Below, piece after piece: positions 4,158 through 20,895 of a DNA stretch of 21,063 nucleotides. This stretch comes from Spirogloea muscicola (lineage: Eukaryota; Streptophyta; Zygnematophyceae; Spirogloeales; Spirogloeaceae): positions 720,444 to 741,506 of the forward strand of contig WELB01000056.1 in NCBI GenBank assembly GCA_009602725.1. Direction: 5' to 3'. How positions within the stretch are numbered: the first letter of the stretch is position 1; each line of letters opens with the position of its first letter. The notes below the pieces were generated by a model that saw nothing but the letters and a program-made list of their open reading frames with translations, did not search any database and had not been told where the DNA came from. Both the position numbers and the translations under genes were made by a program.

Positions 4158-4220
4158 CTGGAAGGGGGGGGGGCCTGGGCCCTAGCCCGCAGGCTGTCGC
4201 CCGGCCGCTCCAAACAGGAA

Positions 4221-4392
4221 GCGCGGCCAGATTGACTGGTGGCTGGGAAAGGCCAGCCCAAAGCAATGGACAAGGTCTGGAGGAGCCGGAATACGAAGGA
4301 CTAGGACTGAGACATCAGCCAGGGAACGCTCAGTAACCTCTAGTCAGGAGATGCAAGTCTGAGTAGCTAGCCGGCGGAAAGACGTCGCCATA
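4221..4392 (-). mobile_element. 5'-truncated LINE-like copy A
   Basis: Read on the minus strand it gives the end of an ORF (ASYSDLHLLTRGY, stop at 4330-4332), then a short 3' UTR and a GGCTGG-type hairpin at about 4240-4259, ending near GGCCGCGC. It is closely similar to copies at 9563-9712 and 14085-14432. It lies immediately upstream of the 5'-most visible WrbA exon and in the same sense, so it probably sits in that gene's first intron. Confidence 0.8.
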
Positions 4393-4395
4393 GGA

Positions 4396-4447
4396 GCGAC
4401 GAGCTCGCCAATGGAGAATAGGGGCTGGCAAAGCCAACCCAACCAGG
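4396..4447 (-). mobile_element. LINE-like 3'-end fragment L (hairpin and terminus)
   Basis: The minus strand reads GGGTTGGCTTTGCCAGCCCC, then CTATTCTCCATTGGCGAGC. This is the hairpin plus terminal motif of the family, with little else retained. It abuts the 5' end of copy A, so two copies lie head to tail. Confidence 0.7.
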
Positions 4448-4817
4448 AGTGGACAATGTCCTCGCCTCGGCGGTGGAGGCGCGCGATTCTCCCCTCCCCC
4501 TCGTTGCGGGCTGCCCTCTCGCCGCCGCTGCTGCCTCACGCTGGAACCGCCGTTGCCCCTTTGCGGGGAAGCGGCATCGTCGTCGCCCACCGTCTCCTCC
4601 ATCCGCCCGTCTGCTCCCACGGCCCCCGCTCCACTTGGCCGCCGCCTCCCCGCGCTCCCCCCCCGCCTCGCCCTCTGCCTGCCTGCCACGCGCCCCACCC
4701 CCCTTTCCAACCAAAACAAAAAGCAGAAACAAAAGGGAAAACAGGATGCGGCTGCTGATACCGAATGAGCAGCTGTAGAAGCCAAACCCAGGCTCACGGG
4801 CCCAGGTCTATCGCATG
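4448..4817. other. GC-rich low-complexity stretch, no assigned gene
   Basis: Open frames exist in several phases because of the base composition. On the minus strand an ATG at 4602 begins a hydrophilic Arg/Gly-rich frame (MEETVGDDDAASPQRG). It could be a first exon of the WrbA-like gene or of another transcript, but no splice junction ties it to anything. Confidence 0.25.
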
Positions 4818-4900
4818 CGCTTATCGAAAGGGCTCGCCCATTGAGCATTAGGGGCTGGAACAGCCAGCCCCAAAAAGTATAGAACAAAGTACGCTTATCG
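4818..4900 (-). mobile_element. 65-bp LINE-like 3'-end insertion K with 9-bp direct repeats
   Basis: CGCTTATCG occurs at 4818-4826 and again at 4892-4900, flanking 4827-4891. The insert read on the minus strand is the family's 3' tail: the GGGGCTGG/CCAGCCCC hairpin, then a variant of CTATTCTCAATGGGCGAGC and a final CTTT. This looks like a target-site duplication around an extremely 5'-truncated retrotransposition event. Confidence 0.75.
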
Positions 4901-5097
4901 GCTCCCTTCAGCGGTCCATTGCACACGCCTTGCATCTGCGTGATGGCCTCGCTGCAGCCTCGGGATTCCGCCAAGGGGATTGTTTTTCGGCAGCTAGTCT
5001 GTCGGAATTGAGGCTTGTCGGTTTTGAGGCTCCTCACTCGTTGCTACTAAGTGGTCCCTCCTGTTCTAAAATAGCGCTTTAGGCCCCTCCGTCAGTT

Positions 5098-5185
5098 TGC
5101 CCCTTCGAACCTTCGTCAATTCGTTTTGGGCTGGCTTTTCACAGCCCTTCCCCCCATTGGGAGTGCCACTTCTTCTCTTGGAAGA
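5098..5185 (+). repeat. Decayed LINE-like 3'-UTR unit
   Basis: It has the family order CCCCTTCGAAC, TTCGTTTTGGGCTGG, CTTTTCACAGCCC and then ATTGGGAGTGCC. The hairpin's right arm carries an extra CA. This variant tail (CACAGCC...TTGGAAGTG) recurs elsewhere in the window and forms a second subfamily. Confidence 0.65.
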
Positions 5186-5202
5186 GCCACTTCTTCTTCT
5201 AA

Positions 5203-5345
5203 ACACCTTAGTTTGCACCTTAGTTTAGGTCTCCGTATTATGTAGCCCTGTTTAGTTTGCCCTAGACTCTGCCTGAACAATGTATCGGCTTGAATTGGCC
5301 TCCATTTCATTACATGCGCCCCGCGCGCCTTCTCTCTTCTAAACC
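5203..5345 (+). repeat. Dispersed repeat R2, copy 1
   Basis: The block from TCTCCGTATTATGTAG through GCCTGAACAATGTATCGGCT to CCCCGCGCGCCTTCTCTC recurs almost intact at 20758-20895 and partly at 6284-6372. Reverse-strand relatives are at 5700-5850 and 9388-9500. It is non-coding as far as I can see and may be another part of the same retroelement's 3' region or an independent family. Confidence 0.7.
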
Positions 5346-5396
5346 CAGGCGCACCGCATGCATGGCCAAGAGGACGTGCTACTTTTCCGCGGGCTG

Positions 5397-5600
5397 GCCC
5401 CTTCGAACTCTGTTCACTCCTCTTTCTGTGCTGGCCGATCACAGCCATCGCCCTCTACTGGAAGTGTCTTCCTCTGTTTGCACCCCTCGCCCCCTTCTCT
5501 TCTTTAGGGTGTGCTTTAGCGTCTTTCTGGCTCCTTCGAACTCTGTTTTCTTTTTCTTCTGGGCTGGTCTCTCACAACCATTGCCGTGAACATGGAGAGC
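5397..5600 (+). repeat. Two further decayed LINE-like 3'-UTR units
   Basis: CCCCTTCGAACTCTGTTC followed by a degenerate GCTGG...CACAGCC occurs at 5397-5480. CTCCTTCGAACTCTG followed by GGGCTGGTCTCTCACAACC occurs at 5520-5600. Both have the hairpin with CACAGCC or CACAACC right arms, like the unit at 5098. Confidence 0.6.
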
Positions 5601-5699
5601 TATTTCTGCTGCATGAAGAGTCTGTCTCCTTCTCTCCTTTACAGGAGTGAGCTCTTCCAAGAAAAGGCGCGCAATTGCGCATGTAATGATTGGCCAACA

Positions 5700-5850
5700 A
5701 GTGGCCAATCCAAGCCAATTCAATCCAAGCCAATACTTGTATTGGCTTGTACATTGTTCAGGCAAGAGCTAGCGCAACAATCGGGCTAATCTTAGAAAAG
5801 TCCTATGATGCTAATGTGGCTAAGGAAACAGTGTGACAAAGGGGGCAGTG
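5700..5850 (-). repeat. Dispersed repeat R2, inverted copy with internal palindrome
   Basis: On the minus strand it contains GCTCTTGCCTGAACAATGT, as in the R2 core. The segment continuing to the AACAGTGTGAC motif (about 5829-5839) matches 9388-9500. A perfect 11-bp inverted repeat with a 2-nt centre (CAAGCCAATAC / GTATTGGCTTG) lies at 5726-5749, preceded by imperfect CCAAGCCAAT direct repeats. Confidence 0.6.
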
Positions 5851-5958
5851 GCTGCGAATGTCCAGCCCGGAAACACGGACAAGGTCCAGAGGGCCGAAAC
5901 AGTATCAAACAATTATGGAAGAGCCTACAGCGAAGGTGAGCTTATAAACCCCAAGACA

Positions 5959-5989
5959 GCAGCTGCAAGTCGGAGTAACTTGCAGCTGC
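5959..5989. repeat. Perfect 12-bp inverted repeat with 7-nt loop
   Basis: GCAGCTGCAAGT and ACTTGCAGCTGC flank CGGAGTA. It lies in repeat-rich DNA with no convincing gene. The left arm resembles the GATGCAAGTCTGAGTAGC segment of the LINE-like copies, so it may be a rearranged remnant. Confidence 0.55.
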
Positions 5990-6169
5990 AAACGAGGCAC
6001 CCCAATGAGACCCAGGAGGAGCAGCCAGAGCGTGGCCTGCCCGCAAAGGCACTGCGTGACCCAGGGAACGTTGGAAGGAAGAGCTGCTTCCTCCCCATCG
6101 GCCAGGCTTCGCCAACGGGCACGGCCTCGAGCCCCGTGGGGCGCTCGTCGCCTCACTTTGCGCTTTCCG

Positions 6170-6600
6170 GCCCCCAACTTAGCATGCCGGATCTGTGACG
6201 TGGTCACTCGTGGTTATTGAACACCCCTTTCAGCCAATCGTTGCAAAGTCACTGCAGCCCCCTCAGCAGAGAATCACTTGTGTAACCCAAGTCTCTGCAC
6301 TAGCTTTTGCCTAAACAGTGTGTTGGCTTCAGTTGACCTGCCTTTCAATCAATGGGCACCGCCCCCCTTCTCTCTTTCGGCCCCTTCGGACCTTTCTACT
6401 TCTCTTGGGCTTGGCCTTCCACAGCCCTTCCCTTCGGTTGCTTACCGACCATCCTTCTTGACACTTGCTTAAGTATGTGTATCAGCGCTCTCCTGCCCCT
6501 TCGGACCTTGTTCATTTGTTTCGGGCTGGCTTTTCACAGCTCTCGCGCCCTTTGGATGAGCCTACTTTCACAGCCATTGCCCCCCTTTCAAGTAACCTCC
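6170..6600 (+). repeat. Cluster of decayed element ends (ORF terminus, R2 piece, two 3'-UTR units)
   Basis: At 6190-6220 a frame ends D-V-V-T-R-G-Y-stop, a degenerate version of the family's C-terminus. A partial R2 follows (6284-6372). Two 3'-UTR units with CCCCTTCGGACC and a GGGCTTGG or GGGCTGG hairpin start follow at about 6375-6440 and 6486-6560. No host gene is visible. Confidence 0.55.
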
Positions 6601-6611
6601 GCTCTTCTGGA

Positions 6612-6668
6612 AAGAAACAGCTCGCCCGTAGAGAAGAGGAGCTGGCAAAGCCAGCCCAAAAAGAACTT
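6612..6668 (-). mobile_element. LINE-like 3'-end fragment M
   Basis: The minus strand reads TTTTTGGGCTGGCTTTGCCAG, CTCCTCTTCTCTACGGGCGAGC and then TTTCTTT. It is closest to the tail of the copy at 20110-20533. No convincing direct repeats were found at its edges. Confidence 0.7.
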
Positions 6669-6890
6669 CCTGAAGAATTCCTCTACCGCCCCTCATTACC
6701 AGCGAGGCAGGCCTCTCCTTCCCTTGCTGGCGTCTCGTCGCCCCACTGAAAATACTTCTTTCCGCTTGCCTTGGATTGACGGGGGCTGTGATACTCATGG
6801 TTTCCAATGCTGCCCTCTCAAGCTGACCAGCGGCGCCCGCAAACAGGGTGCAGCACTTCCTAAAGACTCGGTGCCTTCGGAGTGTGTCCT

Positions 6891-7048
6891 GCTACCGCAT
6901 GCGTCTATTCATGTCCCTCCACCGTACCCAAGCGCTTGCTTTGCACCGCCGGGCCGGTCGCGCCTTTGCAGCAGCCTCTGGCTTGCGCAGCGGGGTTGCT
7001 GTTTCCCTCTCAGCTCACCTGACTTGCTGTTGCTGATACGAGGGTACC
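6891..7048 (+). pseudogene. Fragment of the LINE-like ORF C-terminus, frameshifted (copy G)
   Basis: Frame 2 encodes YRMRLFMSLHR and then RRAGRAFAAASG, matching YRMRLAVSLQR / RAGRAVAAASG at 15.8 kb and FRMRLSVSLQR / RAGRALVAASG at 20.3 kb. The terminal S-P-D-L-L-L-L-I-R-G-Y lies in another frame with no stop after it. This is a decayed 5'-truncated copy. Confidence 0.7.
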
Positions 7049-8880
7049 AAGAGTGCCTTGCATGCCTAGCCCGTGGCTCCGCTAGGGTTATGTACAATCT
7101 CTGTATGCACCTGGCTGGCTATTGCAGTCGCTCTATTACTATACCTGTATGCAACTGGCTGGCAATCCACAGTCGGTTCTTGAATAGCAGCCGCAGCTCT
7201 GCTTTTACAGCTTTGGCCTCGTAGAGGGCGCGCGGTGTGCCTAAAATCAAGGGAGGCCAAGCGGGAGCTATTACATTGTTCATGCCAAAGACAAGGGAAA
7301 AGCAAGGTTAGGGCTACATAGCAAGGCCCACTGCTTTGTCCTGGGCATCCTCAGCATCCCCTGCTCAACTCCGACAATAATGCTGCCGGCTCTTTGGCTC
7401 TTGCACATCGTCTGCGTCTGTCCATGTCGCTGCAGCGTTTACTGAAGTTATCCCTTGTTTCTGTATGCTGCCTCTGACAGCAAGACTTGCAGCAGGACTG
7501 CCCATCACCCTCAAGCTCAACCGTCTCTTAATCTCATGCGCACCGCGCGCCTTCTCTCTTTGTGACAAGGTTGCTGAGTGGTCCCTCCTAGCCGGGGCTT
7601 TTATGTTGTACACACTTAATCCTGGACCAAATTATGCACGTGGCCTTACAGCCGGCCTTTAAGGTCAGCAATAGTTCTCTTCTGAAGTCCCCATCTACTC
7701 TTCCAACATCCACTGACCAACTCCGCTGCTGTACAAAGCCAGAAGCAGAGGCCTGACCACCTACTGGCGACGGGTCATCAAGACTTCGGCTCAGTGATCA
7801 TTCAACTTGTCCTCTCGCACAATTCGACCATGCCCGGTTACAGTGGATCCTGTTTGACCAGCATCATAAATAATGCCAAGCTTTGGCATCCACCAGGCCT
7901 TTCTCAGGAATGCCCTTGTAGGTGCACGACCGGGGTGACCGTATTCAGGAGGGCTACTAAGAGAGCATAGCTTCTTGCGTATGGGAATGGGACGAGAACC
8001 GAATCAGTGTCTCAGCAAAGCTACTGCAAGCGCTGAAATGGTGCAGTATGCAGACGAGCGCAAATGGCCTCGACTGAAGTCAGAGCACCCCGCCACCAAC
8101 CACGTTATATTATTCCTTTGGCCTCCCTCGAGAAACAGAATACACGAAAATTCCTTTGGGCTCCTTTCCTTTTCATGTGCACCCCCGCTCCTTTTCCTCC
8201 CTCCGGGTTTCAAAGCACGCTCCAACCCTCCCGTGCTTCCTTAGCCCCTCTTAGTCTGCGATTTCGCTTTGTTTGGTCCCGTTCTTTGCACTTCATTGAC
8301 TTTTCATACGAGCAGTATTTCTGTATGAGCAGTATACTGGCACGGCTCAGCTGCAATGACATTTCAAAGCGGACCGCGCACTCTCCCTTGCAGCCTGCAT
8401 CACTGCGTTAATCAGAGGCGGCGGCTGCCCTACTTGACAACTTGAGTAGCAGGACGGTACACTCTTTGAACGAATGCCCTTTCTGGAGTGCCACAAACGC
8501 CCTTCTTGAGCCCGGTGTGCTCCAACTCCCTGGTTTCCTTGCTTCCTGCAAGATGCTGTGTGCGGCTATGAAGTCATGCAAGTGCTTTTCTTGATGGGAC
8601 GGGGCGCTCGCCTGGCCGCCTTGGCGTGTGTGAGCGACCACGTGAACGGCTCTGATTGGAACGTATCTGGCAAAGTATCTCGCAAAGCGGAGGAGCTGCT
8701 GCTAGAGAGCTGCCAGGACTGCCAGCTGACGTGCCTGCAGGCAGTGACAGCAGCGTGCACGCCTGAGTCTGCGGGCTGAATGCACAAGATGACACAACAA
8801 GGTCGATGTATGCATCATCGGGCCCCATCTTTGACTCAGTGGAGCCTTTGCTTGAATGGGCTCAAGCTACACACCAGATG
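7049..8880. other. Long stretch without an identifiable gene
   Basis: No recognisable protein, tRNA or rRNA was seen. Scattered R2-like pieces occur (CATGCGCACCGCGCGCC near 7535, and a diverged CATGTGCACCCCCGCTCC near 8180). Open frames on both strands are short and mutually overlapping. Confidence 0.45.
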
Positions 8881-8887
8881 AATATCA

Positions 8888-8919
8888 GTGTGTCCCCTTC
8901 GCTGCGGGGGGGGACACAC
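8888..8919. repeat. Perfect 10-bp inverted repeat with GC-rich loop
   Basis: GTGTGTCCCC (8888-8897) pairs with GGGGACACAC (8910-8919) around a 12-nt loop. No U-tract follows on either strand and no gene is adjacent. Confidence 0.5.
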
Positions 8920-9387
8920 CCGACACCCCGACATCCCAACATTCACCGTGACGGTTATTGTCGGGGCGACTGACATGTGTGCCCTGGAAACAGGGATTTC
9001 GCCACCGCATGCTGATATGCTCGACCAGGAAGCGGGATACGGGCATGTGCATCTGGAGGTGCACGAGGAACGCAGGTGTAGTCCTCGCACCGCGAGAAGG
9101 GGCTGTTCTGTATACAGAGCACTTGTGTGCTGGAGCAGAAGGGGCGAGAGGCAGATCGCCAGGCGTGTACTATGTCGGGCATGTGGCTGGGTGTCGACGG
9201 GCAGGGCGAGCGATCAGCATCAGCGGCTCTGGAGGGATGTGTCCTGGGGGCATTACTTCAGTGAGTAACTGAATCGCTCATGGAAAGGGAGCTGCTGGGG
9301 ACGACGGCGGCGGGGGCGGGGGCGTGGGCGTGCATCGGGCGAGAGCGATGGTAAAGAGCCCGCGGTGCGCATGGAGAAGAGAAAAGG
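8920..9387. other. Unassigned sequence
   Basis: A plus-strand frame (8888-9268) and a minus-strand frame overlap here, but neither shows a known motif, signal peptide or splice-supported extension. I do not call a gene. Confidence 0.35.
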
Positions 9388-9500
9388 GGCCAATTCAAGC
9401 CACCACATTGCTCAGGCAAAAGCTAGTGCAAAGTATGGGGCTACATCAGACGAAGCCCCATGCTACGGTGGCCACGAAAACAGTGTGACGTAGTAGTACC
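9388..9500 (-). repeat. Dispersed repeat R2, second inverted copy
   Basis: On the minus strand it holds CTAGCTTTTGCCTGAGCAATG and then GGTGGCTTGAATTGGCC. It shares the distal AACAGTGTGACG motif with the copy at 5700-5850. It sits just left of LINE-like copy B. Confidence 0.6.
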
Positions 9501-9562
9501 CACAGGTGGAGCACATGCAACCCCGACAAGCTGATCTGGGGAGCCGGAGCACCCGGCAGAAA

Positions 9563-9712
9563 GAAAGCGCGGCCAGATTGACTGGCGGCTGGGAAAGGCC
9601 GGCCCAAAGGAATGGACAAGGTCTGAAGGAGCCGGAGTGCGAAGGAATAGGACTGAGACAATCAGCCAGGGGGCGCTCAGTAACCTCTAGAGATGCAAGT
9701 CTGAGCAGAGCA
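9563..9712 (-). mobile_element. 5'-truncated LINE-like copy B
   Basis: It is nearly collinear with copy A (4221-4392): GCGCGGCCAGATTGACTGG, hairpin, then GACAAGGTCTGAAGGAGCCGG and the ORF end. A deletion of about 5 nt next to the last codons turns the usual S-D-L-H-L-L-T-R-G-Y end into S-D-L-H-L-stop. It lies about 120 bp upstream of the SDR start codon and points away from it. Confidence 0.8.
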
Positions 9713-9834
9713 GTGGGGCGCCGCGCGGCGGGGGGCGCATGCACAGGGCCGGAGGCGCCGGCGGCCCAGGCTGCCCCTCATGCATGCGCGCGCGCCCCTG
9801 CCTCCCCTCGGCCCCCGCCCTCCCCACCGCCGCC

Positions 9835-11739
9835 ATGGAGCTCACGCACGCCGTCCTCAACCTCGTCGTGCCGCCCTTCCTCCTTGCCAACCTCGTCCTG
9901 CTCTACCCCCTCCTCCTCCTCTGGCGCCTCGCCTCCACCCTCTACCGCCTGCCCTACCCCGAGGACGTCCGCGGCAAGGTCGTGCTCATCACCGGCGCCT
10001 CCTCCGGTATCGGCGAGGTGAGCCGAACGGGCGCTGGGCCCTCCCCCGGCCTGGCCGCCCTCCCTTGGCCCGTGGCCGCAGGCCCTGTGCTGGCCGTCGC
10101 CCGGGCCGGAGGGCCTGCCCTCCGTCGCGCTCGCTCGCATCGCATCTCCGGCGGCAGCTCGCGGTCGCCTTACTCGGACCGGTACTCCCGCCGAGCCTGT
10201 AGCAGCCTGCACCCGCGCATACGACCGCCGCAATTTCATCATCACCTCTGCCCCCCAATCTGGGCTGCATGCAGGAAACCGCCTACCGCTATGCTGAGCG
10301 GGGTGCCAAGCTGGTGCTGTCTGCTCGAAGGGAAGACCGCCTGCGCCACGTGGCCCAGGAGTGCAAGCGCAAGGGTGCCATGGAGGCTCTGGTGTACAGA
10401 GCAGACCTGCGCGAGGAGGAGAACAACAAGCAACTGGTCGACTATGTGATCCACAAGTTTGGCCGCTGTGAGCATCTGCCTCATCCGGCTCCTCCTGTGC
10501 CCCCTAGAAACTGCATCGCCAGGTGTTGCCGAGTCTCTCATGGCGTGTGAGTCGTGGACGGGTAGACACCGTTGCATGCATGGCCACCCGCGCTCCAGTG
10601 AACCTGTCGTCCCGATCACTGGTGATACTCTGACCAGCCCTCCACTGGAACCTTGTTGATTGCCCAGTGGACCACTGCTTTGCCAATGTCGGCGTGGCGA
10701 TGGCCTTCCACTTCGAAGATGCACCAACGACAAAGGCATTCAGGGAAGAAATTGTAAGCCTGATGCTGCTTGGTGAACTGGGGCTGCCTGACTCCTGCCA
10801 CAGGGGCCACCGCTAGTGGCAGACAGTGCTGGTCACTTCATTCGAGTCAGCGGACCCGAAGATGAAACCGATGCCTTCACGACATATCTCACAAGTACGG
10901 ACACTTGATTGCAGGCATCAACTTTCTGGAGTGATGTGTACACAATATACTACGCACTACCCCATCTGAGGCAAAGGAAAGGCGTCCTGCTGGTCATGGC
11001 CTCTGCAGCTGCGTTCACGCCCTACCCGTACATGACGTCATACAATGCTGCCAAGGCTGCCATTGCCAACTTAGCAGACACCATCAGAGTCGAAGAGGCA
11101 GGCGAGGTACACGTCACTGTCATCGAGCCTGGATGGGTCGAAAGCGAGATGACCATGGGCAAATTCATCAATGAGGAGGGTAACATTGTTTGGGACAAGA
11201 ACAAACGGGATGTGAGCAATCTGCAACCCTTGCCCCTCTGGCCGCATCTGTGGCGCTTTCATGTTGCTCTACGCCCATTGTCTCTGTCCGCTGCAGTCTG
11301 CATGCCCATGTGCAGGTACCCAATAACATGCTTGTGTCCTGCTCGGAGCAGTGTGTTGTGGGACCAGTCCCTGTGGAGCGCACCAAAACTTGCTCCGAGA
11401 CGATCATTGATGCGGCCCTCAGAAGAAAGATGCACAGGATTACACCAAAGTGGTTTGCGGTCATGCTTTACTACCGCACCTTCGGCCTCAAGATTCTGGA
11501 GCCGTATCTTCGGACGATGTTCTGTGCTCCAAAGGGTCAGGTACGCGACCAATGCAGCATAGCTGCTGCCTGACGTCTTGAATTGCACCTCAGTTGAGAT
11601 GTATCTGTGCTTGCAGCACGTACGCTGATGCAGGACGTTTTTGTAATATGTCCCATGGCTGCAGAAGCCATTCAGCAAGATGCTAGTGGAGCTCCCTCTT
11701 CTGCAACAGATCCTGTACCCAAAGACACTACGACAGTAG
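9835..11739 (+). CDS. Steroleosin-like hydroxysteroid dehydrogenase (SDR family), six exons
   Basis: Exons 9835-10017, 10275-10467, 10668-10753, 10915-11211, 11352-11540 and 11665-11739 join in phase to 340 residues; the introns are 257, 200, 161, 140 and 124 bp. The start lies in GCCGCCATGG. Residues 7-30 form a hydrophobic, Pro-containing anchor like those that place plant HSD/steroleosins on ER or lipid droplets. The NAD(P) motif TGASSGIG is at 53-60, and the catalytic Ser184, Tyr197 and Lys201 (TSYNAAK) are present. Further family matches are EPGWVESEMTMGKF, the VGPVPV segment straight after the exon 4-5 junction, and the C-terminal ILYPKTLR. Two usual residues differ: NNAG is ANVG (131-134), and the Asn before Phe-Trp of the SDR tetrad is Thr157. 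The length is close to plant HSD1. Substrate is unknown; an 11-beta/17-beta-HSD-like oxidoreductase is the family role. Confidence 0.9.
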
Positions 11740-11755
11740 AAGGCTCCGCCTACTC

Positions 11756-11760
11756 TGTAA
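11756..11760 (+). terminator. Candidate TGTAA poly(A) signal for the SDR gene
   Basis: TGTAA begins 16 nt after the SDR stop codon. This position would give a very short 3' UTR, so a later unrecognised signal may be used instead. Confidence 0.35.
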
Positions 11761-12115
11761 GGTGCTTAGAAAGCGCCTTGGATTAACTTGGAGCGAAGTA
11801 CAAAAATACAACAGTGCCACTCTTGCCTGCCGTGTGCATTCTTGCAAGAAGCACATTCACTACCTTGTCCAAAGACCTGGGACCACACATTGATGTCTAC
11901 TGAGAATATAGAAGAGCTTGCAGCTACTTGCCACCACAAAACAAGTACGTAGGGTCCTCGACAATGGCGACAGTTGCCAAAGTCGTGGCCATCATTTGTT
12001 CAAGTACATGTCCTTCTGCAATACAGCTGCAGTTGCCGTGCCCCCATGGTGCATGACCTCTTTCGGGGGCCAACGCTGAAGAAGCTTTAGTAGCACACGT
12101 ATAGTTTTGTTGCTT
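11761..12115. other. SDR 3' flank without a gene
   Basis: I see no coding or repeat structure in this interval, which runs up to the palindrome at 12116. Confidence 0.4.
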
Positions 12116-12150
12116 GCACTGGAACATTATATTAAATAATGTTCCAGTGC
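12116..12150. repeat. Perfect 35-bp palindrome (15-bp arms, 5-nt loop)
   Basis: GCACTGGAACATTAT and ATAATGTTCCAGTGC flank ATTAA. Its right end coincides with the start of homology to the LINE-like ORF C-terminal domain at about 12150. A second palindrome of identical geometry sits at another copy's junction (19865-19899). Confidence 0.85.
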
Positions 12151-12395
12151 GTGGGCCTCGTCTGCTCCTGGACGTGGTACTGATCGACGCGTACAAGGCT
12201 GGCGCACCCACGTCAACCGTGTCCGGCTGAGCCCCGTCCAGCGCGGAGCGCAAGAAGGAGCGGCACTACCAGGACCATCCCCGAGGATACCATCTTTATC
12301 CGTGTGCCATGGATATCTACGGAGGCTATGGCGTAAAATGGTCCTCCCTAATCCAGCATCTGGCCCGGCTGGTTGATGTGCGTCGTCGAAATCGG
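12151..12395 (+). pseudogene. Relic of a LINE-like ORF C-terminal domain (diverged copy)
   Basis: The frame reads GPRLLLDVVLIDAYKAGAP, STVSG, an in-frame TGA, then AERKKERHYQDHPRGYHLYP, AMDIYGGYG and LIQHLARLVDVRR. It parallels the segment at 15.5-15.8 kb (GGPRLLLDVV..., HGALCARWLELLNQLSRH). In retroelement ORFs the LDV(T/V) strand followed by an AK/AERK...HP.GY...P.A.D.YG block is a typical C-terminal arrangement (from memory). The one stop codon and lack of any upstream ORF mark it as dead. It is not closely similar in nucleotides to the other copies, so it may come from an older or different lineage. Confidence 0.65.
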
Positions 12396-12491
12396 GGGGG
12401 CAGCTTGGGCCACTCCAGAATTCCGCAGGCCTTAGTTGCAAAATACAAGCTAAATACAAGCTAAACAGGGCCACGCAGTCTCAAGCTTGCA

Positions 12492-12615
12492 GCGTGTGCA
12501 CAAATGGGACACAGGACGACACATCAGAGAGCTGTGAGTGCAAAGGAGATCGTCCGCAGCAGGGGCCGCACATTAAGTGGGTATGTGACGGGCTGCCCCC
12601 CTGCAAAAGAGTGAT
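12492..12615 (+). other. Candidate Cys-rich exon (weak)
   Basis: After a TTGCAG acceptor-like site the frame reads VCTNGTQDDTSESCECKGD and then HIKWVCDGLPPCK. Cys spacing and a K-W-V-C motif resemble the minus-strand Cys-rich exon at 13093-13485 (QAKWVC). No start codon or partner exon is visible, so this could be chance or a fragment. Confidence 0.25.
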
Positions 12616-12917
12616 GCCATTGAGAAGTGCACGTCAAAGAGCTGTTGGGAAGCCACATGCATCCCACTTCTGCAGTGGCGTCAGCTGATAATATGCCATC
12701 TTTGCTTGATCCGCAGTCCTCAACTGCAAGCTGGTCGATGAGCTGCCTACACCCCCGCGGACGTTACGAAGAAACCGCCATAGTGCAAGACCTTCACTCA
12801 CTTGCAGCACAGAACAGTGCCAGGGCGGTCGAATGGCCTTTATTGGAAGCAAAGCCAGCACTGCAGGAGCACGTGTACATGTTCAGCAGGACATGCTGCT
12901 GAGGTACAGCAACAGTG

Positions 12918-13716
12918 TTGTTGACGTTCTGGCACGTTGCCTTTGAATCGCCACCTGATTGCTGGCAGCAGTTTGTGCTGGTGCCAGAGACGCAGGCCTG
13001 CTGAACGCAGGGCAAGAGTGCTGTCGACAGTACACATGGGTGGCCCAGATCAGTTACCGCAACCTGGAGCGAGCTGAAACTCATGCGCTTACGGTGTCAG
13101 CTTGTCGCTCGTCTTTAGTCTGAGGTGTTGGTCAGCTGTCCAAGGACCAAGCCCAGCAGCGATGCACCAGTCCACGCAACCAGAGTGAAGGGCTGCGGGG
13201 ATCAGGTTGTCAAACTTCTCTGATTCTTTTTCGAGCTCATGATCGCAATGGCAGACGCAGGCGAGGCCTGAAGGTGCTACGCGGGCAGCTGCTGGCTGCT
13301 TGCCGCAGAATGGCGGAATGTATAGGTTGCCCAACACCACCCTCTGGTAATTGGGGTCGTTGCATACGCAGTCGTCGTAACCCATGGGGTAGTTGGGATC
13401 AGAGGTCACACAGACCCACTTGGCCTGGGGGTCGCCAGGGCCCCCTCCAAGGTCCGTCTGGCAACTGGCATTGCTGCCGTAGCCTCTGCTACCCAAAAGA
13501 AGGGTCAGGTGCCGCTGGAGAAATGTTGCATGCCCTTCTCATGCAATGAGTCCTCTATGAAGTTCCTCAACGAGGAACGAGAGGAGCCCATCGGCGGTCA
13601 ACAGCGCTTGCTGCTGGAGTGTTTTCACGACAGCACTTACATTAAGCATAGGCAGACGAGGGATGGAGGAGGACGGATGCCAGCAGGACGAGGGCCATGC
13701 TGCTTGCGACCGCCAT
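12918..13716 (-). CDS. Probable secreted Cys-rich protein, exon 1 disrupted
   Basis: An ATG at 13716 in a GCAGCCATGG context begins a classic signal peptide, MAVASSMALVLLASVLL, ending S-A-Y-A. It is followed at once by TAA and then a perfect GTAAGT donor (13640-13635). An acceptor (GTAGCAG) opens exon 13485-13093, which encodes at least ten Cys, including KWVC, DDCVC, CVCHC and VDWC, and ends at a GTAAGC donor. A further Cys-rich frame (QACVSGTSTNCCQQSGG, then ATCQNVNN) lies at about 13030-12918, but its junction is not resolved. Exon 1 is 76 nt; one more base would remove the stop and match the phase of exon 2. So a 1-nt deletion, real or an assembly error, is likely. The family is not recognised; an extracellular matrix or wall protein is a guess. 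Confidence 0.45.
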
Positions 13717-13852
13717 GGCTGCGGGCGGGACTGCGTGCCACCGGGGTCAGGGACTAAAAGTGCGTGGGAAGGAGGGGGGGGGTGGCAACCGCGACCATGA
13801 GTGAGGACAGGTCTGAAGAGCTGACTAGCTAAAGAGCTAGTGAGAAAAAAGA
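13717..13852. other. Upstream flank of the Cys-rich gene
   Basis: This short region would hold the minus-strand promoter of the Cys-rich gene. It contains a G run at 13774-13781 and AGCTAAAGAGCTAG near 13829; no recognised promoter element was found. Confidence 0.3.
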
Positions 13853-13948
13853 GGCGAGGGTGCTGATAAAAAGAAGCAAGTGCTCGCCCATTGAGAATAG
13901 GGGCTGGAACAACCAGCCCGAAAAAGAAGGCGAGGGTGCTGATAAAAA
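13853..13948 (-). mobile_element. 56-bp LINE-like 3'-end insertion J with 20-bp target-site duplication
   Basis: A perfect 20-bp direct repeat (GGCGAGGG...GATAAAAA) lies at 13853-13872 and 13929-13948. Between them, 13873-13928 read on the minus strand is only TTCTTTTTCGGGCTGG, loop, CCAGCCCC, TATTCTCAATGGGCGAGC and ACTTGCTTC. The same sequence ends the longer copy at 19586-19750. This is a complete, extremely 5'-truncated retrotransposition event. Confidence 0.85.
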
Positions 13949-14084
13949 AGGGGAAAGGGGGTGGAAAATGGGAGAGCGTGCTATACGTCAAGAAAGAGAG
14001 AGAGTGGGANCCCGTGTGCGCCCCGGGCCCGACGGCGCCGGGGGGCGGCCCGCTCCGATCGGAGGGGCATCTCTCGGTAGGAGG

Positions 14085-14432
14085 AAAGCGCGGCTGGTGG
14101 CTGGGAAAGGCCAGCCCGAAGGACTGGACAAGGTCTGACTAGCATCGCTGATCTGCGGCTGCTTAGCAGCGGTTACTGAGTGATTTGTAGCTGCTTTGTT
14201 TCTGTGTGTGCTTGTTATTCTTAGCGCTTCCCCTGGCCCCCTTCTCGTACTTTGTTCATCCTTTTTTGGGCTGGCTTTTCCAGCCCCTATCCTCAATGGG
14301 CGAGCACTTTCTTCTGATGGAGCCGGAGTGCGAAGGACTAGGACTAAGACATCAGCCAGGGAACGCTCAGTAACCTCCGGTCAGGAGATGCAAGTCTGAG
14401 TAGCTAGCCGGCGGAAAGACGCCGCCCTGACG
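14085..14432 (-). mobile_element. LINE-like copy C, interrupted by copy D
   Basis: The halves 14432-14318 (ORF end S-D-L-H-L-L-T-G-G-Y-stop, then UTR) and 14138-14085 (hairpin and terminus) together match uninterrupted copies A and B. The break falls between GACAAGGTCTGA and GGAGCCGGAGTGCG, which are adjacent in copy B. Confidence 0.85.
14139..14317 (+). mobile_element. LINE-like copy D nested in copy C
   Basis: The plus strand gives ADLRLLSSGY-stop, a UTR of about 90 nt, the hairpin GGGCTGGCTTTTCCAGCCC at 14268-14286, CTATCCTCAATGGGCGAGC and ACTTTCTTC. TCTGA flanks it (14134-14138 and 14313-14317); part of this may be microhomology. It is nearly identical in layout to the minus-strand copy at 19586-19750. 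Confidence 0.88.
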
Positions 14433-15164
14433 GAAGCCGGAGGCCGCCGCCAAAGCTCGGCCTGCGCGCAAGTGATCCGCGAAGGCGAGGCACCGCGGCA
14501 GCGAGATGGCCAAGCGCATTCGGAAGACTTGAGCGAAGGAGGGCCCGCCTTAGGTTGGGGATGGCGGCCGGGGAGACCGGCGCTGCCGGTGGGCCTCCGC
14601 CGCCGTCGCGGGAGGGGCCGTTCGGATGAGCGCGCGAGATAGAGCCGGAGCGAGCGCGCGTGCGCGGCGGCGATGGCGGACGGGCGGGCGGGCGGGGCGC
14701 CGCGCCAGGCGTAGCCGCCCGCGGCCGGGCAAGCCGGCCCGATCCAGGGAAAATCTCGGGTTTAAAGGCATCTTAGTTGAATCAAATCTTGCTGAACGAG
14801 CTTCGCCATGATGAGAAACTCTCGACACGCTCAATGACCTTCGCAAATCCGCTAACGGGCAGTATGTTAAAGTAATTCTGTTGATGCGCAGCCAAGTGGA
14901 GACACTCTTACGAATGCCGTTCTCTGCTGTCCGTGGAAGGCTTCCAGCCATCAAGCGCCCAAGCCGGCTGGCAGGTCCCCAAATAGCGGAAAGAGTTATA
15001 TGGCACTCTCGCACCCACTCTCGTCAAGAAGCGTGCTCCTCGCGACATGGACAAATGTCGCGTGCTGAGATCATCTTACTGTCTTCAAATAGTCACGCGA
15101 GATCCGTACTCGCTTCGTGAGACGGATGGCGTGAACTGCGAGCAGGCCGGCCGCACCTGGCAAG
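14433..15164. other. CpG-rich then ordinary sequence, no assigned gene
   Basis: 14433-14750 is very GC-rich with open frames in several phases but no motif. From 14760 the composition drops sharply and no coding or RNA feature was recognised. Confidence 0.4.
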
Positions 15165-15270
15165 GAGTGGAGGGCTCGCTCATGAAAAAAAAGGGGCTGG
15201 CTTTGCCAGCCCAGAAAAGAACGGTCCGCAGGCCTCAGAGAAGAAATGGCACTCCCAATGGGGGCTGTGA
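15165..15270 (-). mobile_element. Composite of LINE-like 3'-end fragments (N)
   Basis: The minus strand reads TTCTTTTCTGGGCTGG, CAAAG, CCAGCCCC (hairpin at about 15193-15212), an eight-T run and GAGCGAGCCC. Next to it, 15243-15268 is a piece of the other tail variant (TTCACAGCCCCCATTGGGAG on the minus strand). Two tail fragments appear joined. Confidence 0.65.
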
Positions 15271-15294
15271 AGCCTGCCGCCGCCATGTTTCCAG

Positions 15295-16125
15295 GGTGTG
15301 CAAGAGTGCGAATGTGGCGAGCGAGGGGCCGAGCCTGGGGAGCTGGCCGCTCATGATCTGCGCTGTTCCCACAGCGGAAAGCGGACAGCGGCCCACGACC
15401 ATCTCCGGGATGCGATGCATGGCATTCTTGTGGAGGCTGGCTTCTCGGTGGCAGCCGAGAACTCCGCCGACATGCCGCTCCAGCGACGGGCCGACGGTCT
15501 CCACGCTCTGCGCGTCGACCTTGTGGCCACCCCACCAGCCGGCGGGCCACGTCTTCTCCTGGACGTGGTGACCACTCTCATATGACCGCTCACACTCAGC
15601 CCAGTGTGCCACCGAGGCTGGTATGCGGTAGCCTGCGCCGCTCGGGCCAAGGAGCTAGAATGCGTAGATCAACCGCGGGAAGATAAATCTTCCCGCTCGC
15701 CATCGATGCACGGGGCGCTTTGCGCTCGGTGGCTCGAGCTGCTCAACCAGCTCTCACGCCACGCCATTGTCCGCCGTTTCCATGGGGAACAGGTGGACTC
15801 CCATGCAGCAGGGTCGCTAGCGCAGGTGTACCGCATGCGCTTGGCCGTCTCGCTGCAGAGGTCTATGGCCCGCGCGCTGCACCTGCGTGCAGGCAGAGCC
15901 GTCGCTGCTGCCTCCGGCTCTGGCCAGGGGACCGCTCCCAGGAACCCAGTCTCATGGACCTGAGGCTGCTTAGCCAGGGTTACTGAGTGCTTCGTAGCTG
16001 CTTCGTTTCTATTTGGTGCTTGTTCTTCTTCGTACTTCCCCAGGCCCCTTCTCGCCCTTTCTTCATTCCTTTTTGGGCTAGCATTTTCCAGCCCCTATTC
16101 TCAATGGGCGAGCCCCTCTCTCTCG
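15295..16125 (+). pseudogene. LINE-like ORF C-terminal domain and 3' end, longest copy (E)
   Basis: From 15295 the frame gives CECGERG, HDLRCSHSGKRTAAHDHLRD and AMHGILVEAGFSVAAE, then RRADGLHALRVDLVATPPAG and GPRLLLDVVTTLI. In retroelement polyproteins this Cys/His motif plus an R-x-D...LDVV strand is the usual region C-terminal to the reverse transcriptase (from memory); the RT itself is absent. Damage: in-frame TGA at 15583-15585; a frame change near the palindrome 15675-15696 (10-bp arms), where F-P-L-A-I-D-A-R-G-A lies in another frame; an apparent 2-nt loss just after; and a last shift before M-D-L-R-L-L-S-Q-G-Y-stop (15984-15986). The 3' UTR, hairpin (16075-16094) and GGGCGAGC follow. 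Confidence 0.78.
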
Positions 16126-16317
16126 CTGTGAAAGGGCCTCAGAAGGCCACAAAACAGTGCCAGGAAAGACAAAGGGCAAGGAGGGGCATGTCGAGCGGCA
16201 TGCAGCTATGCCCGCTCGAGGCAGGAACGTGGGTCACGGTAGTCCGGCTGCGCAGCGCAGGTGTCTAGCATCGAGCATACTCACACCCCCATCGACATGG
16301 ATTCTTCTATCCGGCAG

Positions 16318-16543
16318 ACAACCATAGTAGATTCCCGGAGCTGGTGGCAACAGGCCGACTGGGCGATTCCCGGAAGGTGGCTGGCCGAGAGGCATGGTCT
16401 GCTCGCTCCTCGACTGGGCCGGTGAAGTCACAGAGTAGCTTTCCTCAAATGTTCCGTCACCGAGAGGTGGTATTTGAGAAACCGGCATCCCTGGTGCCGG
16501 AAGCGTCCCCGCCACTTGGCCACCAAGCAAGCCGGCTGGTCCT
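16318..16543 (-). other. Candidate Gly/Pro-rich exon of an unrecognised gene
   Basis: After CGCATGCAG on the minus strand an open frame reads GPAGLLGGQVAGTLPAPGM, then SQIPPLGDGTFEESYS and later NRPVGLLPPAPGIYYG, before a GTTGTC donor-like site. Composition and phase look coding, but no domain, start or partner exon was recognised. Confidence 0.3.
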
Positions 16544-16549
16544 GCATGC

Positions 16550-17138
16550 GGCCGTGGCGAGCTTGCTAGCCTCGCTCCCCTCACGCCGATGCGACGTTGG
16601 CCTCACCGTGGCAGCTTCCCACCATCTCTCGTCACCCTCTGAGAAACCGCCACGCTGCGGAGCATGGTGCAGCTCGCCTCGTCTCGGTCCGGCGACGGAC
16701 GCCCCCGCAGTTCTTGGTGGCCCAACTCACTGCTCGTTCGGCACGCTGAGCTGCGCCCGCTGAGCCCAGATCGATCGTGGAAGCGCTTGCATGGGCATGG
16801 CTGCTTCCAACAAATGGCAGCGACTTGCCCTGCAGATAGATGCTCGGCCCTTTCTGCGCGTCCTTAAGCTCCTCCTCCTCCCACTGGGAGCTTGACACCT
16901 TCATGCCACGCCATGACACTCCCCCTTAGTGTGCTGGTGCTGCTCCTATGCGATATCTCCTATCCGAAATGTGGTCATGCCTATTGATTGCTGTGTGGGA
17001 TCAAGTATGGCTAACTCATCACTTGCGGGCAGCCTGCTGAGCTTGGCTTAGTGCGGCTGCAGCCTCGAGGCGTCCGCCAACATTTATCTGCTGCGAATCT
17101 GCGTGCCAGCAGGCCTGACCGCCTGAAGCAGCAACGGC
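16550..17138. other. No assigned gene
   Basis: Open frames occur on both strands up to about 16900 without recognisable features. The remainder is ordinary non-coding-looking DNA. Confidence 0.35.
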
Positions 17139-18517
17139 ATGGACCAGAGCGCAAACCCAAGGACGAGCGAGAAAGATTCGCCCGCCTTGAAACGGGTCAA
17201 GAAGAGCCTTCTCCAGATGCTAGGAGATGGCGAGTATTACATCTGCAAATCAGACTTCAACCTTGTGGAGGTAGTACTTAATTGTATTGGCAGCGGCAAT
17301 GGCGACTATGAGAAGCTGCCACCAGGAAAGGCATAGTTCAGAGCGAGGGCACCGGATAAATCGGGGCGGCAGGTTGACTCCGATCATGGGCGTTCATGGT
17401 AGTACGTTGAGGTCTTTGAGATCGACACGCTCGACAAGGTAGTGAGCACACCTTACGTCAGCTGTGATGTGGCAGATACTCCAGCACTTGCCGAGGTGCT
17501 TTCATTGCCTGTCACTCCACGTGCGATTGTAGACCTGACCAAGTCTGTCTCTGCTTGTTAGGTTGCGCTCGTAAAGTTGCACCCACTGCTCACTTTGTTG
17601 ATTACTCAGATGGCACCTAAAGAACACCAGCAGCAGCCCCACGTTGACGGCAATCACAATGGTCCATCGAACTTCGTCATCAATGACGAGTCTCAGCAGG
17701 GCTTCAGTCATTTACCAGGGTGCTGTGGTGGTTCATCTCACAGGCACAAGCGCTGATAAAAATCATGCAGCAAGCATTTGCGCGCCAGATCTTCTTTGCC
17801 TAGATGTCTCGATTCACTGTACTGTCGTGTGTACCTATCTCCAGCAGGTAGCCTCGACTGTCTTTCTCGTGTTCCTCTTGAGAACATGCCTTGAGTAGAC
17901 CCATTTGCAGGTTCTTACCATGGTGACATCGGCTATGTCTCAGATGACATACTAGAATATGACGTATGTGTCTTTATTTGTCCTCAAAAATCTGCTTGCC
18001 TAGGATTACCCATTGCTCGTGGCAATCAGGAGCAAGTGTAGACTGCAAGGCAAACTTGTGGTTGGATTTAGGTCAACCAAAGCCTTGAATTGTTGCTGTG
18101 TGCTAAAATGTGGAAAACCAGTAAATCCAGATTGTTGCAAACTGGACCTTAAAACTCAACCCGTGCCTCAGAACCTCGTATGTGCAGTTGAGAAGGGGCG
18201 AGTACAGACCTTCCGGTGCCAAGGTCTCAAGGGCACGCACCCTTCTGCAGCGTGACCAGTCTCACAACCCCCGAGCGGATCTCAACAAATCACGAAGTCC
18301 TACATAAAGCTCCACTTCTGATGGCCCATCGCTTGACTTTCGGGTTGGAAGCCCTGAATACTCATTTACTTAGTTCACTTTAGCGACACCTGAAGCCATC
18401 AAACCCTACAGCTTGGACAATGCAGGACACTGGCTATCATGGACATCTTCCAGATGCATCTGTCACAAATGTCACAAATGTCAGGGATATCATGTGCATG
18501 AGCTTACAAAGCAGCAC
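17139..18517 (+). CDS. Unrecognised multi-exon gene (tentative)
   Basis: An ATG at 17139 (GGCATGGACC) opens 44 codons ending GEYYICKSDFNLVE at a GAG|GTAGTA donor (17270). Exon-like pieces with acceptor and donor sites follow: 17403-17438 (YVEVFEIDTLDK, phase 0 at both ends), 17911-17963 (SYHGDIGYVSDDILEYD, with a GTATGT donor), a frame from 18004 (DYPLLVAIRSKC) and 18426-18517 (DTGYHGHLPDASVTNV, then RDIMCMSLQSS, with a GTAAGA donor). The proposed 40-bp intron 17964-18003 is much shorter than others here. Exons between 17439 and 17910 are not resolved; a hydrophilic frame, MAPKEHQQQPHVDG, lies at 17610. I recognise no family, and the pieces may not all belong to one transcript. Confidence 0.35.
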
Positions 18518-19369
18518 GTAAGATACAATAACACGTGCACTATCAAGGTGATGGGAGCCTCATTGGTACCAGCAGTGTCTTTTGCAGATTCTAGATCGAG
18601 TTGCCGTGTAAAGGGGGACGATAACATGCTATGAACATCTGATGTCAATCTGTTTGGAGGCTCGTCACTCGTAGGTGCATAGACGAGCGAGCCAACCCTT
18701 GCCAGGTAGATGTTCGTGTAGTAGGAGCCAGACTCCTACACACCGAAGCGACTGCGCACACAGCCCAAAGGAAGACCTCACTCTGTGGCGCACCTCAAGG
18801 CGGCTCCACCACCTCCTTGGCACCAGCCAGCGAATTGTTTTGTGAGCGGCGCAGCCACGGACCCCTCGCAGCGAGGTGCCGGCAGAAAGTAGTGGCAATG
18901 GGCTGCGACAGCAGGCAGCAGCACAACTGCCTCACTCTGGGCTCCACTGGCACGAGCACTCTCCGGCCCTCTCTTTGGACCTCGTCCTTTCGTTGTATGA
19001 GGCTGGCGATTTACAGCCGATGCCTCGACGTTGATGGACCTTGTCCTCTTTGCGTAGGCTGGCTTCCGTGTCACCACCCCCCTTTTGCTTCATGCGCACC
19101 GCGCGCACCTCCCGTCCATGGCTTTTGGGGCTTGCTCCCAAGGCCACCACCCCGTGGGGGCCTTTTGAGGGCCACCCTAACGACAGTCCGAGGGCCACCT
19201 GAGGACAAAGTGAGGGTCGTCTGGTCTTTACCTGAAGCCACCAGAGCGTCAACTGAGGGCCACCCGGACTAGCCCGGTGGGTACACGGGACCGTCACCGC
19301 GCGTCCCGAGGCTGACGGCCTCGTACCTCGGGGAGGGTCAGCGGAATTTGCCTGCAGCTGAAATTCTCG
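18518..19369. other. No assigned gene; short imperfect GAGGGCCACC repeats
   Basis: GAGGGCCACC occurs at 19167, 19190 and 19255. A weak hairpin-like GGCTGGCGATTTACAGCC lies near 19002, and an R2-like CATGCGCACCGCGCGC near 19093. The long plus-strand frame (18817-19272) has low-complexity, repeat-derived content. Confidence 0.4.
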
Positions 19370-19393
19370 TTGCATTACCAGCACGGAGGGCGT

Positions 19394-19560
19394 TTACGAT
19401 TGCGGAATGCAAAGCAAGCAATCACTGAGGACCGAATCACACTAATACTGGTGGACGCAATGGAGGGATCCGTGTCGCGCGGTGTTTGGGACGCCCTGGA
19501 GTGCACAAGCTTGCCACGCCGAGGCCAATTTGTGCAATTGCGTCAAAGTGTGAATCGGCC
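19394..19560 (+). other. Candidate coding fragment next to element copy I
   Basis: The open frame reads RNAKQAITEDRITLILVDAM, EGSVSRGVWDALECTSLPRR and then GQFVQLRQ, which has protein-like composition. It runs directly into the tail of copy I without a stop, as if a gene or element ORF were interrupted by the insertion. No family was recognised. Confidence 0.3.
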
Positions 19561-19585
19561 GAGGGTCAGACATCCAGCTCCGAAA

Positions 19586-19750
19586 AGAAGAAAGTGCTCG
19601 CCCATTGAGAATAGGGGCTGGAACAACCAGCCCGAAAAAGAATGAACAGAGTACGAGAAGGGGGCCAGGGGAAGCGCTAAGTAACAGTCACAAAGCTGCT
19701 ACGAGATACTCAGTAACCCCTGCTAAGCAGCCGCAGATCAGAGATGCTGG
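19586..19750 (-). mobile_element. 5'-truncated LINE-like copy I
   Basis: The minus strand gives ISDLRLLSRGY-stop (19710-19712), a UTR of about 75 nt, CGGGCTGGTTGTTCCAGCCC, CTATTCTCAATGGGCGAGC and ACTTTCTTCTTTTC. Its truncation point nearly matches copy D (both start within about 10 nt of the same element position), and its tail matches copy J. Confidence 0.85.
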
Positions 19751-19864
19751 GCTCCTGGAAGTGGAAACAAAGCTCGAAGTGATGGCACCCGTCCCCATCA
19801 TCCCGCCTGATTGGCCGGAGGCGTTCTTCAGGCCATTCGATCAGGACGCGGCCAAGCTGACTCT

Positions 19865-19899
19865 GACGACGGCGCCCTTGCATTAAGGGCGCCGTCGTC
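19865..19899. repeat. Perfect 35-bp palindrome (15-bp arms, 5-nt loop)
   Basis: GACGACGGCGCCCTT and AAGGGCGCCGTCGTC flank GCATT. Homology to the element's 3' UTR (CTGGCCCCAACTTTGTTC) begins a few bases to the right, so the palindrome abuts the 5' junction of that fragment, as at 12116-12150. Confidence 0.85.
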
Positions 19900-19985
19900 T
19901 CTCTGGCCCCAACTTTGTTCATTCTCTCTTGTGGACTGGACCTCTCACGGCCACCGCCCTCTCCTGGAAGCATCCTTTCTTCTCG
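19900..19985 (+). repeat. Decayed LINE-like 3'-UTR unit
   Basis: CTGGCCCCAACTTTGTTCATT, a degenerate GACTGGACCTCTCACGGCC hairpin and CTCCTGGAAG follow the order of other units of the CACAGCC subfamily. It contains no ORF portion. Confidence 0.6.
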
Positions 19986-20109
19986 CAAACCCAACAACCC
20001 CTGCGTCTCCCAGCACGGCCATCGAGGCCCTTCTTCGACCAGAACGAAGGCACAATTAAGAAATCACTTGACACTTCTTTCCAATACTCCTCCTTTTTCG
20101 CTTCTTCTG

Positions 20110-20533
20110 CCATAGACGTCCACGGGGCTTACGGCAGCGGCTGGCTGGATCTCCTCCAGCGGCTTGCCCGCCAGGCCATGGAGCGGCGGCCGGGTCCGCC
20201 AGGGGGGCTGCCCGGCTTCAACGCGGCCGGCTCCCTGGCCCAGGTTTTCCGGATGCGGCTCTCCGTGTCCCTTCAACGCTCACTCGCTCATGCCGTCCAC
20301 TCTCGCGCGGGCCGTGCTCTTGTTGCTGCTTCCGGGTCTCGCCCGGCTGCATCTTTTCCAGCCTCGAGCTACTCTGACCTGATGTTGCTCACCCGCGGGT
20401 ATTGAACTTCGCGTGGTTCCGTCATGTCTAGTTGTCTAGATGCCTAGCGAGTGTTGGAGCTCTTTGGATATTGTCCATTCTTTTTTTGGCTGGCTTCTGC
20501 CAGCCCCTCTCTTCTATGGGCGAGCTCATCTTC
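20110..20533 (+). pseudogene. LINE-like ORF C-terminus and 3' end, undamaged reading frame (copy F)
   Basis: The open frame runs from AIDVHGAYGSGWLDLLQRLA through AAGSLAQVFRMRLSVSLQ and RAGRALVAASG to SSYSDLMLLTRGY-stop (20403-20405) with no stops or shifts, unlike copies E and G. The hairpin GGCTGG-CTTCTG-CCAGCC (20488-20505) and ATGGGCGAGC follow. The 5' side is abruptly unrelated. It is a truncated, probably younger insertion that shows what the intact C-terminus looks like. Confidence 0.78.
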
Positions 20534-20757: not shown

Positions 20758-20895
20758 TTCTGTGTACCTTAGATTAGGTCTCCGTATTATATAGCATTGT
20801 TTAGTCTGCACTCGACTCTGCCTGAACAATGTATTGGCTTGAATTGGCCTCCCTTTCAATTCATGCGCCCCGCGCGCCTTCTCTCTTCTGTGAAA
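20758..20895 (+). repeat. Dispersed repeat R2, copy 2
   Basis: It closely matches 5203-5345 over about 130 bp, from TTAGGTCTCCGTATTAT to CGCGCGCCTTCTCTCTTCT, with scattered substitutions. In both places it lies downstream of LINE-like tail units. Confidence 0.7.

Follow-up and report, generated by a model that had tools for sequence, protein, structure and literature searches.

The window analysed here is a 21,063-nt stretch of Spirogloea muscicola DNA, part of contig C56 in a searched genome of 153 Mb, in which short repeats ending in a 3' hairpin lie in both orientations. The original prediction regarded them as at least 14 copies of a family resembling long interspersed elements (LINEs), and a search with a covariance model built on the 3' module (59 positions) called 16 tails at E < 0.001 between positions 4217 and 20529, 8 of which were also rows of the model's training alignment (Table 1). 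The exact hairpin GGGCTGG-N2-10-CCAGCCC occurs five times in the window against 0.01 expected. Furthermore, one copy of 56 nt (13873-13928) is flanked by a perfect 20-bp duplication, and the copy at 14139-14314 sits in a repeat of lineage E whose uninterrupted copies show the empty site. The analysis supports the repeats as 5'-truncated copies of a LINE: long copies with an open reading frame (ORF) for reverse transcriptase (RT) were found, and truncated copies that share their 3' end occur with target-site duplications. The host is photosynthetic, as shown by 68 matches in its genome to the light-harvesting family PF00504.

Long copies and their protein

A genome search with the coding end that precedes the hairpin at 16075 (P0002) returned 12,878 first-look candidates, of which 150 were scored; several of these matches lie in open frames of 1,290-1,357 amino acids (aa). 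Five long copies of this lineage, A, were fetched (L004-L008), each of ~4 kb with one ORF of ~1,325-1,357 aa; four are 99.65-99.98% identical to the reference L006 over 3,968-4,108 bp. All five begin at the same base, with TCTGG just before it in four, and L004, L006 and L008 terminate in GAGCACTTTCTTC, L005 having a different 3' end. Queries with the coding ends of lineages E and F returned 14,942 and 18,540 first-look candidates, 150 being scored for each. Three F copies (L094, L095 and L098) have open frames of 1,393-1,418 aa and are 99.72-99.91% identical in DNA over ~4.28 kb, and two E copies (L096 and L097), compared without a defined 5' end, have open frames of 1,521 and 1,196 aa and are identical over 3,564 bp. 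Alignments of the A, E and F proteins cover 985-1,245 residues at 64-71% identity, and all three lineages end in a hairpin whose stem hardly varies while its loop does. The end of L007 (CTATTCTC) and a change in L094 at CTCTTTCTT both lie just 3' of the hairpin, and at both of these 3' ends reverse transcription may have started internally, at a word resembling the tail.

The ORFs encode an RT (Pfam RVT_1, 8.5e-16 in A, 2.4e-13 in F and 1.1e-14 in E), and the extension in the 5' direction to a long RT-bearing element, suggested in the original prediction, succeeded with the five A copies. In the PDB, R2 retrotransposon proteins were the sole matches of the A ORF below 1e-3 and the best match of a profile of the three full proteins (4.7e-08), in a database that holds few LINE clades. 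Two C2H2-like motifs were seen by eye at the N-terminus of the A ORF, where the best Pfam match (0.093) was below the cut-off. C-terminal to the RT, a restriction-like endonuclease (RLE) with D..D and KX2KY was recognised in A, E and F by motif only. The residues invariant in the C-terminal alignment are a Cys/His motif, HD, RRxDLVA..DVVTTD (x variable), AKExKY and GxxW. The Cys/His motif is spaced CX1CX12HX3C, in contrast to the published zinc knuckle CX2-3CX7-8HX4C. KX2KY is the catalytic signature of LINE RLEs and is neighboured by GXW, which compares with GxxW here (PMC5678591).

The A, E and F ORFs gave no match to an apurinic/apyrimidinic endonuclease (APE), and PF14529, the APE-type family, had 0 matches genome-wide, which is not proof of absence. 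Domains of long terminal repeat (LTR) elements (protease, RNase H-integrase) had no Pfam match up to E = 1 in the same ORFs. RVT_1 was also used as a route to other LINEs, five loci with the best scores or large frames (L009-L013) being fetched; these were rejected as LINEs and are of LTR type, the three ORFs scanned having integrase and RNase H and the other two being judged by eye. The 3' model matched L009-L012 outside long ORFs only, once in L010 and twice in L012. The matches at C30:122697, C119:327124 and C181:19127 lie in open frames of 6,591 to 10,765 aa, in which stretches of N may have been counted as open, as happened in L013.

We consider it probable that the repeats of the window belong to an R2-like group of LINEs with an RLE, that this group comprises at least three recently copied RT-bearing lineages, and that the 3' hairpin is bound by the protein of the element.

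The 3' module and its copying

The exact hairpin is found at 9,197 places in the genome, compared with 3 for the reversed control; the pattern is its own reverse complement, and the counts of both strands are therefore the same places. The exact tail TATYCTCAATGGGCGAGC was counted 2,790 and 2,690 times on the two strands (control, 0), and exact ORF ends, located with a DNA pattern of the terminal codons LL[ST]RGY*, 2,664 and 2,662 times (reversed control, 0). The fixed order that had been proposed, namely ORF end, untranslated region (UTR), hairpin, GGGCGAGC and CTTTCTTC, holds in lineages A, B and C, with ~12 nt between hairpin and GGGCGAGC, whereas other lineages have different letters after the stem. 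The predicted second subfamily with CACAGCC is real and corresponds to lineages D, G and H, with a shorter stem. On contig C1, all 24 exact hairpins of lineage A, compared by eye, are followed by a complete tail.

From 100 listed of the 5,326 ORF ends, 40 loci were chosen with the hairpin disregarded and rare codon variants favoured, and one proved unreadable. Of the 39 readable loci, 32 had a hairpin (GGCTG..CAGCC, at most one mismatch) no more than 230 nt from the ORF end, against 1.9 expected from shuffles; in three of the 32 (L027, L032 and L052) the hairpin belongs to an inserted copy. A common stem, with a diverged UTR before it, is found in tail types A, B, D, E, F, G and H, and the hairpin stands after the same ORF end in every lineage examined. 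At C1:1708379-1708727 (L051), three E-type ORF ends follow one another on the same strand at a spacing of exactly 164 bp and form a small tandem array.

On contig C1, every one of the first 55 consecutive tails was read, their starts being set by script, transferred by hand and marking the end of homology to other tails; the start at C1:962813 is probably an inserted repeat, not a truncation. In agreement with the predicted lack of a poly(A) tail, no run of at least five A followed within 25 nt of any of the 55. Starts are evenly spread from 2 to 159 nt upstream of TATYC (median, 70 nt), at 0.5-1.2% per nt at risk. The hairpin as a stop point of the RT was rejected because truncation is flat, with no peak there. 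Seven of the 55 tails start within or beyond the hairpin, as target-primed copying allows, and the idea that even the shortest copies retain it did not hold.

Target-site duplications of at least 6 bp flank 20 of the 42 truncated copies with a mapped start, against 5.4 with shuffled partners, and those of at least 8 bp flank seven, against 1.0, in a sample where a few loci share one flanking repeat and the independence of all 42 is uncertain. The duplications differ between copies, and the copies are dispersed on contigs with no fixed target seen. We infer target-primed reverse transcription, which predicts the truncation, the duplications and the precise 3' end. Hairpin-less copies with duplications, named in the original prediction as refuting it, do occur, one example being a tail at C1:690044, where a 12-nt word, CCATTAGCCTGG, is repeated; this test was poorly chosen, because under target-primed reverse transcription the template RNA may carry the hairpin though the DNA copy stops short of it.

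Seven of the 42 truncated copies directly adjoin, on their upstream side, the end of an older tail that has the same orientation and often belongs to another lineage, and none has a tail in the opposite orientation on its downstream side; these counts use exact motifs, for which the background was 0.8% of random window positions and 2.0% of other positions in the same flanks. With a looser motif the counts were nine in the same and one in the opposite orientation at a background of 5.2%, two of the nine and the opposite one being false by eye. These tail-on-tail insertions suggest that an older tail, once nicked, can pair at its end with the RNA end CUUUCUUC.

We propose the following course of events for the copying of the family. 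The element protein would bind the 3' hairpin on its own RNA and bring the RNA end CUUUCUUC to the nicked target, where reverse transcription would begin and mostly halt after ~100 nt. The stem may act as a handle common to all lineages, with lineage specificity residing in the loop, comparable to zebrafish L2 LINEs (PMC4176376). In a further version, which is tentative and as a whole rather doubtful, the loop serves as a lineage address by which the RNAs of co-resident lineages are told apart while the invariant stem is their shared handle, and pairing of CUUUCUUC with older tails leads to head-to-tail stacking, some fragments being only a few dozen nt long.

Readings of the hairpin and related elements

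A putative role of the hairpin as recognition element of the element's own RT fits the data, and its presence in separately evolving RT-bearing lineages is consistent with such a role. The original prediction of an RT recognition element thus retains the sharing among RT-bearing lineages and loses the argument from covariation (below) and that from short copies, which do not always have the hairpin. Alternatively, the hairpin may serve a transcript that lacks poly(A) as its signal for 3'-end formation, stability or export, comparable to the stem-loop of histone mRNA, rather than for recognition by the RT. The missing A runs after all 55 tails and the precise 3' end would suit this explanation. 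However, cleavage of histone mRNA takes place a few nt beyond the stem, whereas the DNA copies here end ~25-40 nt past it, and Rfam and tRNA searches of the window returned no known family and no tRNA. We regard this explanation as unlikely, and the two roles could coexist.

Also improbable, in our judgement, is an incidental folding of a motif that acts as linear sequence or persists by descent only. Conservation was measured in alignment A1, for which 98 distinct 3' ends were defined by their flanks, 24 were removed by eye and 47 of the other 74 were used, one of them re-trimmed, and in which lineage G is absent. The mean majority fraction over the 47 rows was 0.92 and 0.95 in the inner stem arms, 0.71 in the loop and 0.70 in the spacer. 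The two arms are conserved and complementary, the loop enclosed by them differs in letters and length, and the UTR is diverged from lineage to lineage; these points argue against linear reading or mere descent, and the support for the hairpin is this inverted repeat kept around variable loops.

Several results weigh against recognition of the hairpin by an R2-like protein, and some of them favour linear reading. The stem letters are nearly invariant, and the covariation said to be visible was not found: the stem scored 0.097 against 0.099 in shuffles, 252 of 500 shuffles reached at least the observed value, and only 2 of 329 stem cells were altered on both sides. Stem covariation was rejected for lack of excess over shuffles, and sequence and structure are for this reason inseparable here. 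The flanking blocks are conserved too (upstream TTGTYCATTC, 0.84; GGGCGAGC, 0.86), such that the recognised element may exceed or differ from the hairpin. Seven of the 39 ORF ends (L014, L026, L029, L033, L037, L047 and L048) have no recognisable hairpin, and these appear mutated, rearranged or of another kind. The A copy L007 stops at CCCCTATTCTC, just past the hairpin. In addition, phmmer and our own profile matched the endonuclease region to neither R2 nor an endonuclease in the PDB, and no short interspersed element (SINE) sharing the 3' tail turned up, no systematic search for one having been made.

Two further helices were considered and are not claimed. Just 3' of the stem, changes on both sides of a possible second helix were counted in 13 and 9 cells (two runs, stem included), compared with 5.4 and 2.9, with none of 500 shuffles as high; it was set aside, as the lineages are few, its two registers conflict and, by our own reading, the E copies L096 and L097 do not preserve it. 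The outer helix TTGTTCATT/AATGGGCGA was predicted in four of eight folded ends, those of A, B, C and F folding with it (z -2.8 to -4.9) and those of E, D and H without it (z -0.8 to -1.8). It was not accepted as a general feature, a shuffle test giving p <= 0.05 in 3 of 26 sequences, one of these with another helix.

A terminal hairpin of a Helitron or other DNA transposon would be in keeping with a short GC-rich hairpin close to a fixed 3' end, but a Helitron is defined by a Rep/helicase protein, the lack of duplications and a CTRR end, and with long copies that encode an RT, which led to its rejection and contradict a full-length element of DNA-transposon type, 5'-truncated copies with duplications and the end CTTTCTTC, this origin has next to no probability.

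In its single ORF with putative N-terminal zinc-finger-like motifs, RT, a Cys/His motif of different spacing and, by motif, a C-terminal endonuclease with KX2KY, the family of R2-like LINEs proposed here resembles the LINEs encoding an RLE, whose clades are CRE, R2, R4, NeSL with Utopia, and HERO (PMC4640811). RLE LINEs are described there as mostly target-specific, HERO being the clade with many non-specific families (PMC4640811). The RT of our family best matches R2 proteins; in contrast to the R2 clade, insertion is not at one 28S rDNA site, the copies being dispersed with varying duplications. The 3' UTR of R2 measures ~250 nt, of which a small core is recognised (PMC10499050), compared with a shared hairpin of ~19 nt in our family. 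The minimal 3' element might thus be much shorter than the R2 3' UTR. L2 LINEs are APE-type LINEs, whereas the present family has the RLE signature and no APE match. The stringent-type L2 elements UnaL2, ZfL2-1 and ZfL2-2 are similar in having a hairpin near the 3' end with a common stem and a variable loop; in zebrafish the stem is recognised generally and the loop specifically, as assayed there (PMC4176376), a scheme that the stem and loops of our family would fit.

How a LINE protein selects its own RNA is an open question, studied mainly in R2 and in L2-type hairpins. One genome with at least three young RT-bearing lineages that have the same stem and different loops would allow swaps of protein and loop that could separate stem and loop reading in an R2-like enzyme, and the tail-on-tail insertions make self-targeting through RNA-end pairing testable. 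The Zepp LINE of Chlorella inserts into older copies of itself, giving nested arrays, and the tail-on-tail insertions resemble this nesting. Unlike our family, Zepp is of the L1 clade and ends in poly(A) (PMC3747384). Among LINEs of the green lineage described in the same source, a plant L1 lineage likewise has a 3' hairpin, there with compensatory changes, and RandI/Dualen of Chlamydomonas are further LINEs of the green lineage, RandI ending in (ATT)n or (CTATTT)n as opposed to CTTTCTTC (PMC3747384). Dualen encodes both APE and RLE (PMC4640811), in contrast to the lack of an APE match here. We found no RLE LINE with such a hairpin in algae in the literature, and the present families may have been described in subscription journals or Repbase, outside this search.

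Other features of the window

Table 1. Copies and tails of the family in the window, with duplications where recorded
Feature	Position	Strand	Remarks
Lineage E copy, 167 nt	4216-4382	-	ORF end (..LHLLTRGY*), UTR, hairpin 4240-4259, tail
C/F-like tail with hairpin	4399-4456	-	training row
Short A-like copy	4826-4893	-	hairpin 4852-4870; GATAAG on both sides
Lineage D tail	5113-5171	+	hairpin 5128-5147, CACAGCC type; training row
Lineage H tail	5410-5472	+	hairpin 5428-5447; training row
D-like tail	6508-6566	+	hairpin 6523-6542; training row
F-like tail	6612-6677	-	hairpin 6639-6657
Lineage E copy	9561-9705	-	hairpin 9586-9605; training row
Target-site duplication, copy 1	13853-13872	+	20 bp, identical to 13929-13948
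Lineage A copy, 56 nt	13873-13928	-	hairpin 13901-13919
Target-site duplication, copy 2	13929-13948	+	
Lineage E copy	14084-14426	-	hairpin 14098-14117; split by insertion 14139-14314
C-type copy inside E copy	14139-14314	+	hairpin 14268-14286; TCTGA at both junctions
F-like tail	15170-15228	-	hairpin 15194-15212; E = 0.00058
Longest window copy	15272-16117	+	frameshifted C-terminal coding part (P0002, 15586-15960), UTR, hairpin 16075-16094, tail
Lineage A copy	19585-19764	-	hairpin 19615-19633
Lineage H tail	19915-19978	+	training row
F-type copy	20103-20529	+	coding end 20103-20402 (..SDLMLLTRGY*), UTR, hairpin 20487-20506, tail; training row

The repeat present at 4216-4382, 9561-9705 and 14084-14426 was considered as a SINE and rejected, because an ORF (..LHLLTRGY*) ends in it and its relatives include long coding copies; this SINE-like repeat, the only one in the window, is a lineage of LINEs. 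A second repeat family is represented at 5214-5340 and 20763-20889 by copies that are 91% identical and end in ..GCGCGCCTTCTCTCTTC, a pyrimidine tail of similar style without the GGCTG hairpin. At L015 an E copy seems to have received a copy of this second family, flanked by TTG at either side. At 12117-12149 lies an inverted repeat of two 14-nt arms with 5 nt between them (CACTGGAACATTAT..ATAATGTTCCAGTG). Pieces of host genes are found at 196-930 (ubiquitin-like; Pfam 1.6e-23), at 2311-2751 on the minus strand (FMN reductase-like; Pfam 1.8e-10) and at 9691-11562 (short-chain dehydrogenase; Pfam 1.9e-12, in 10909-11562).

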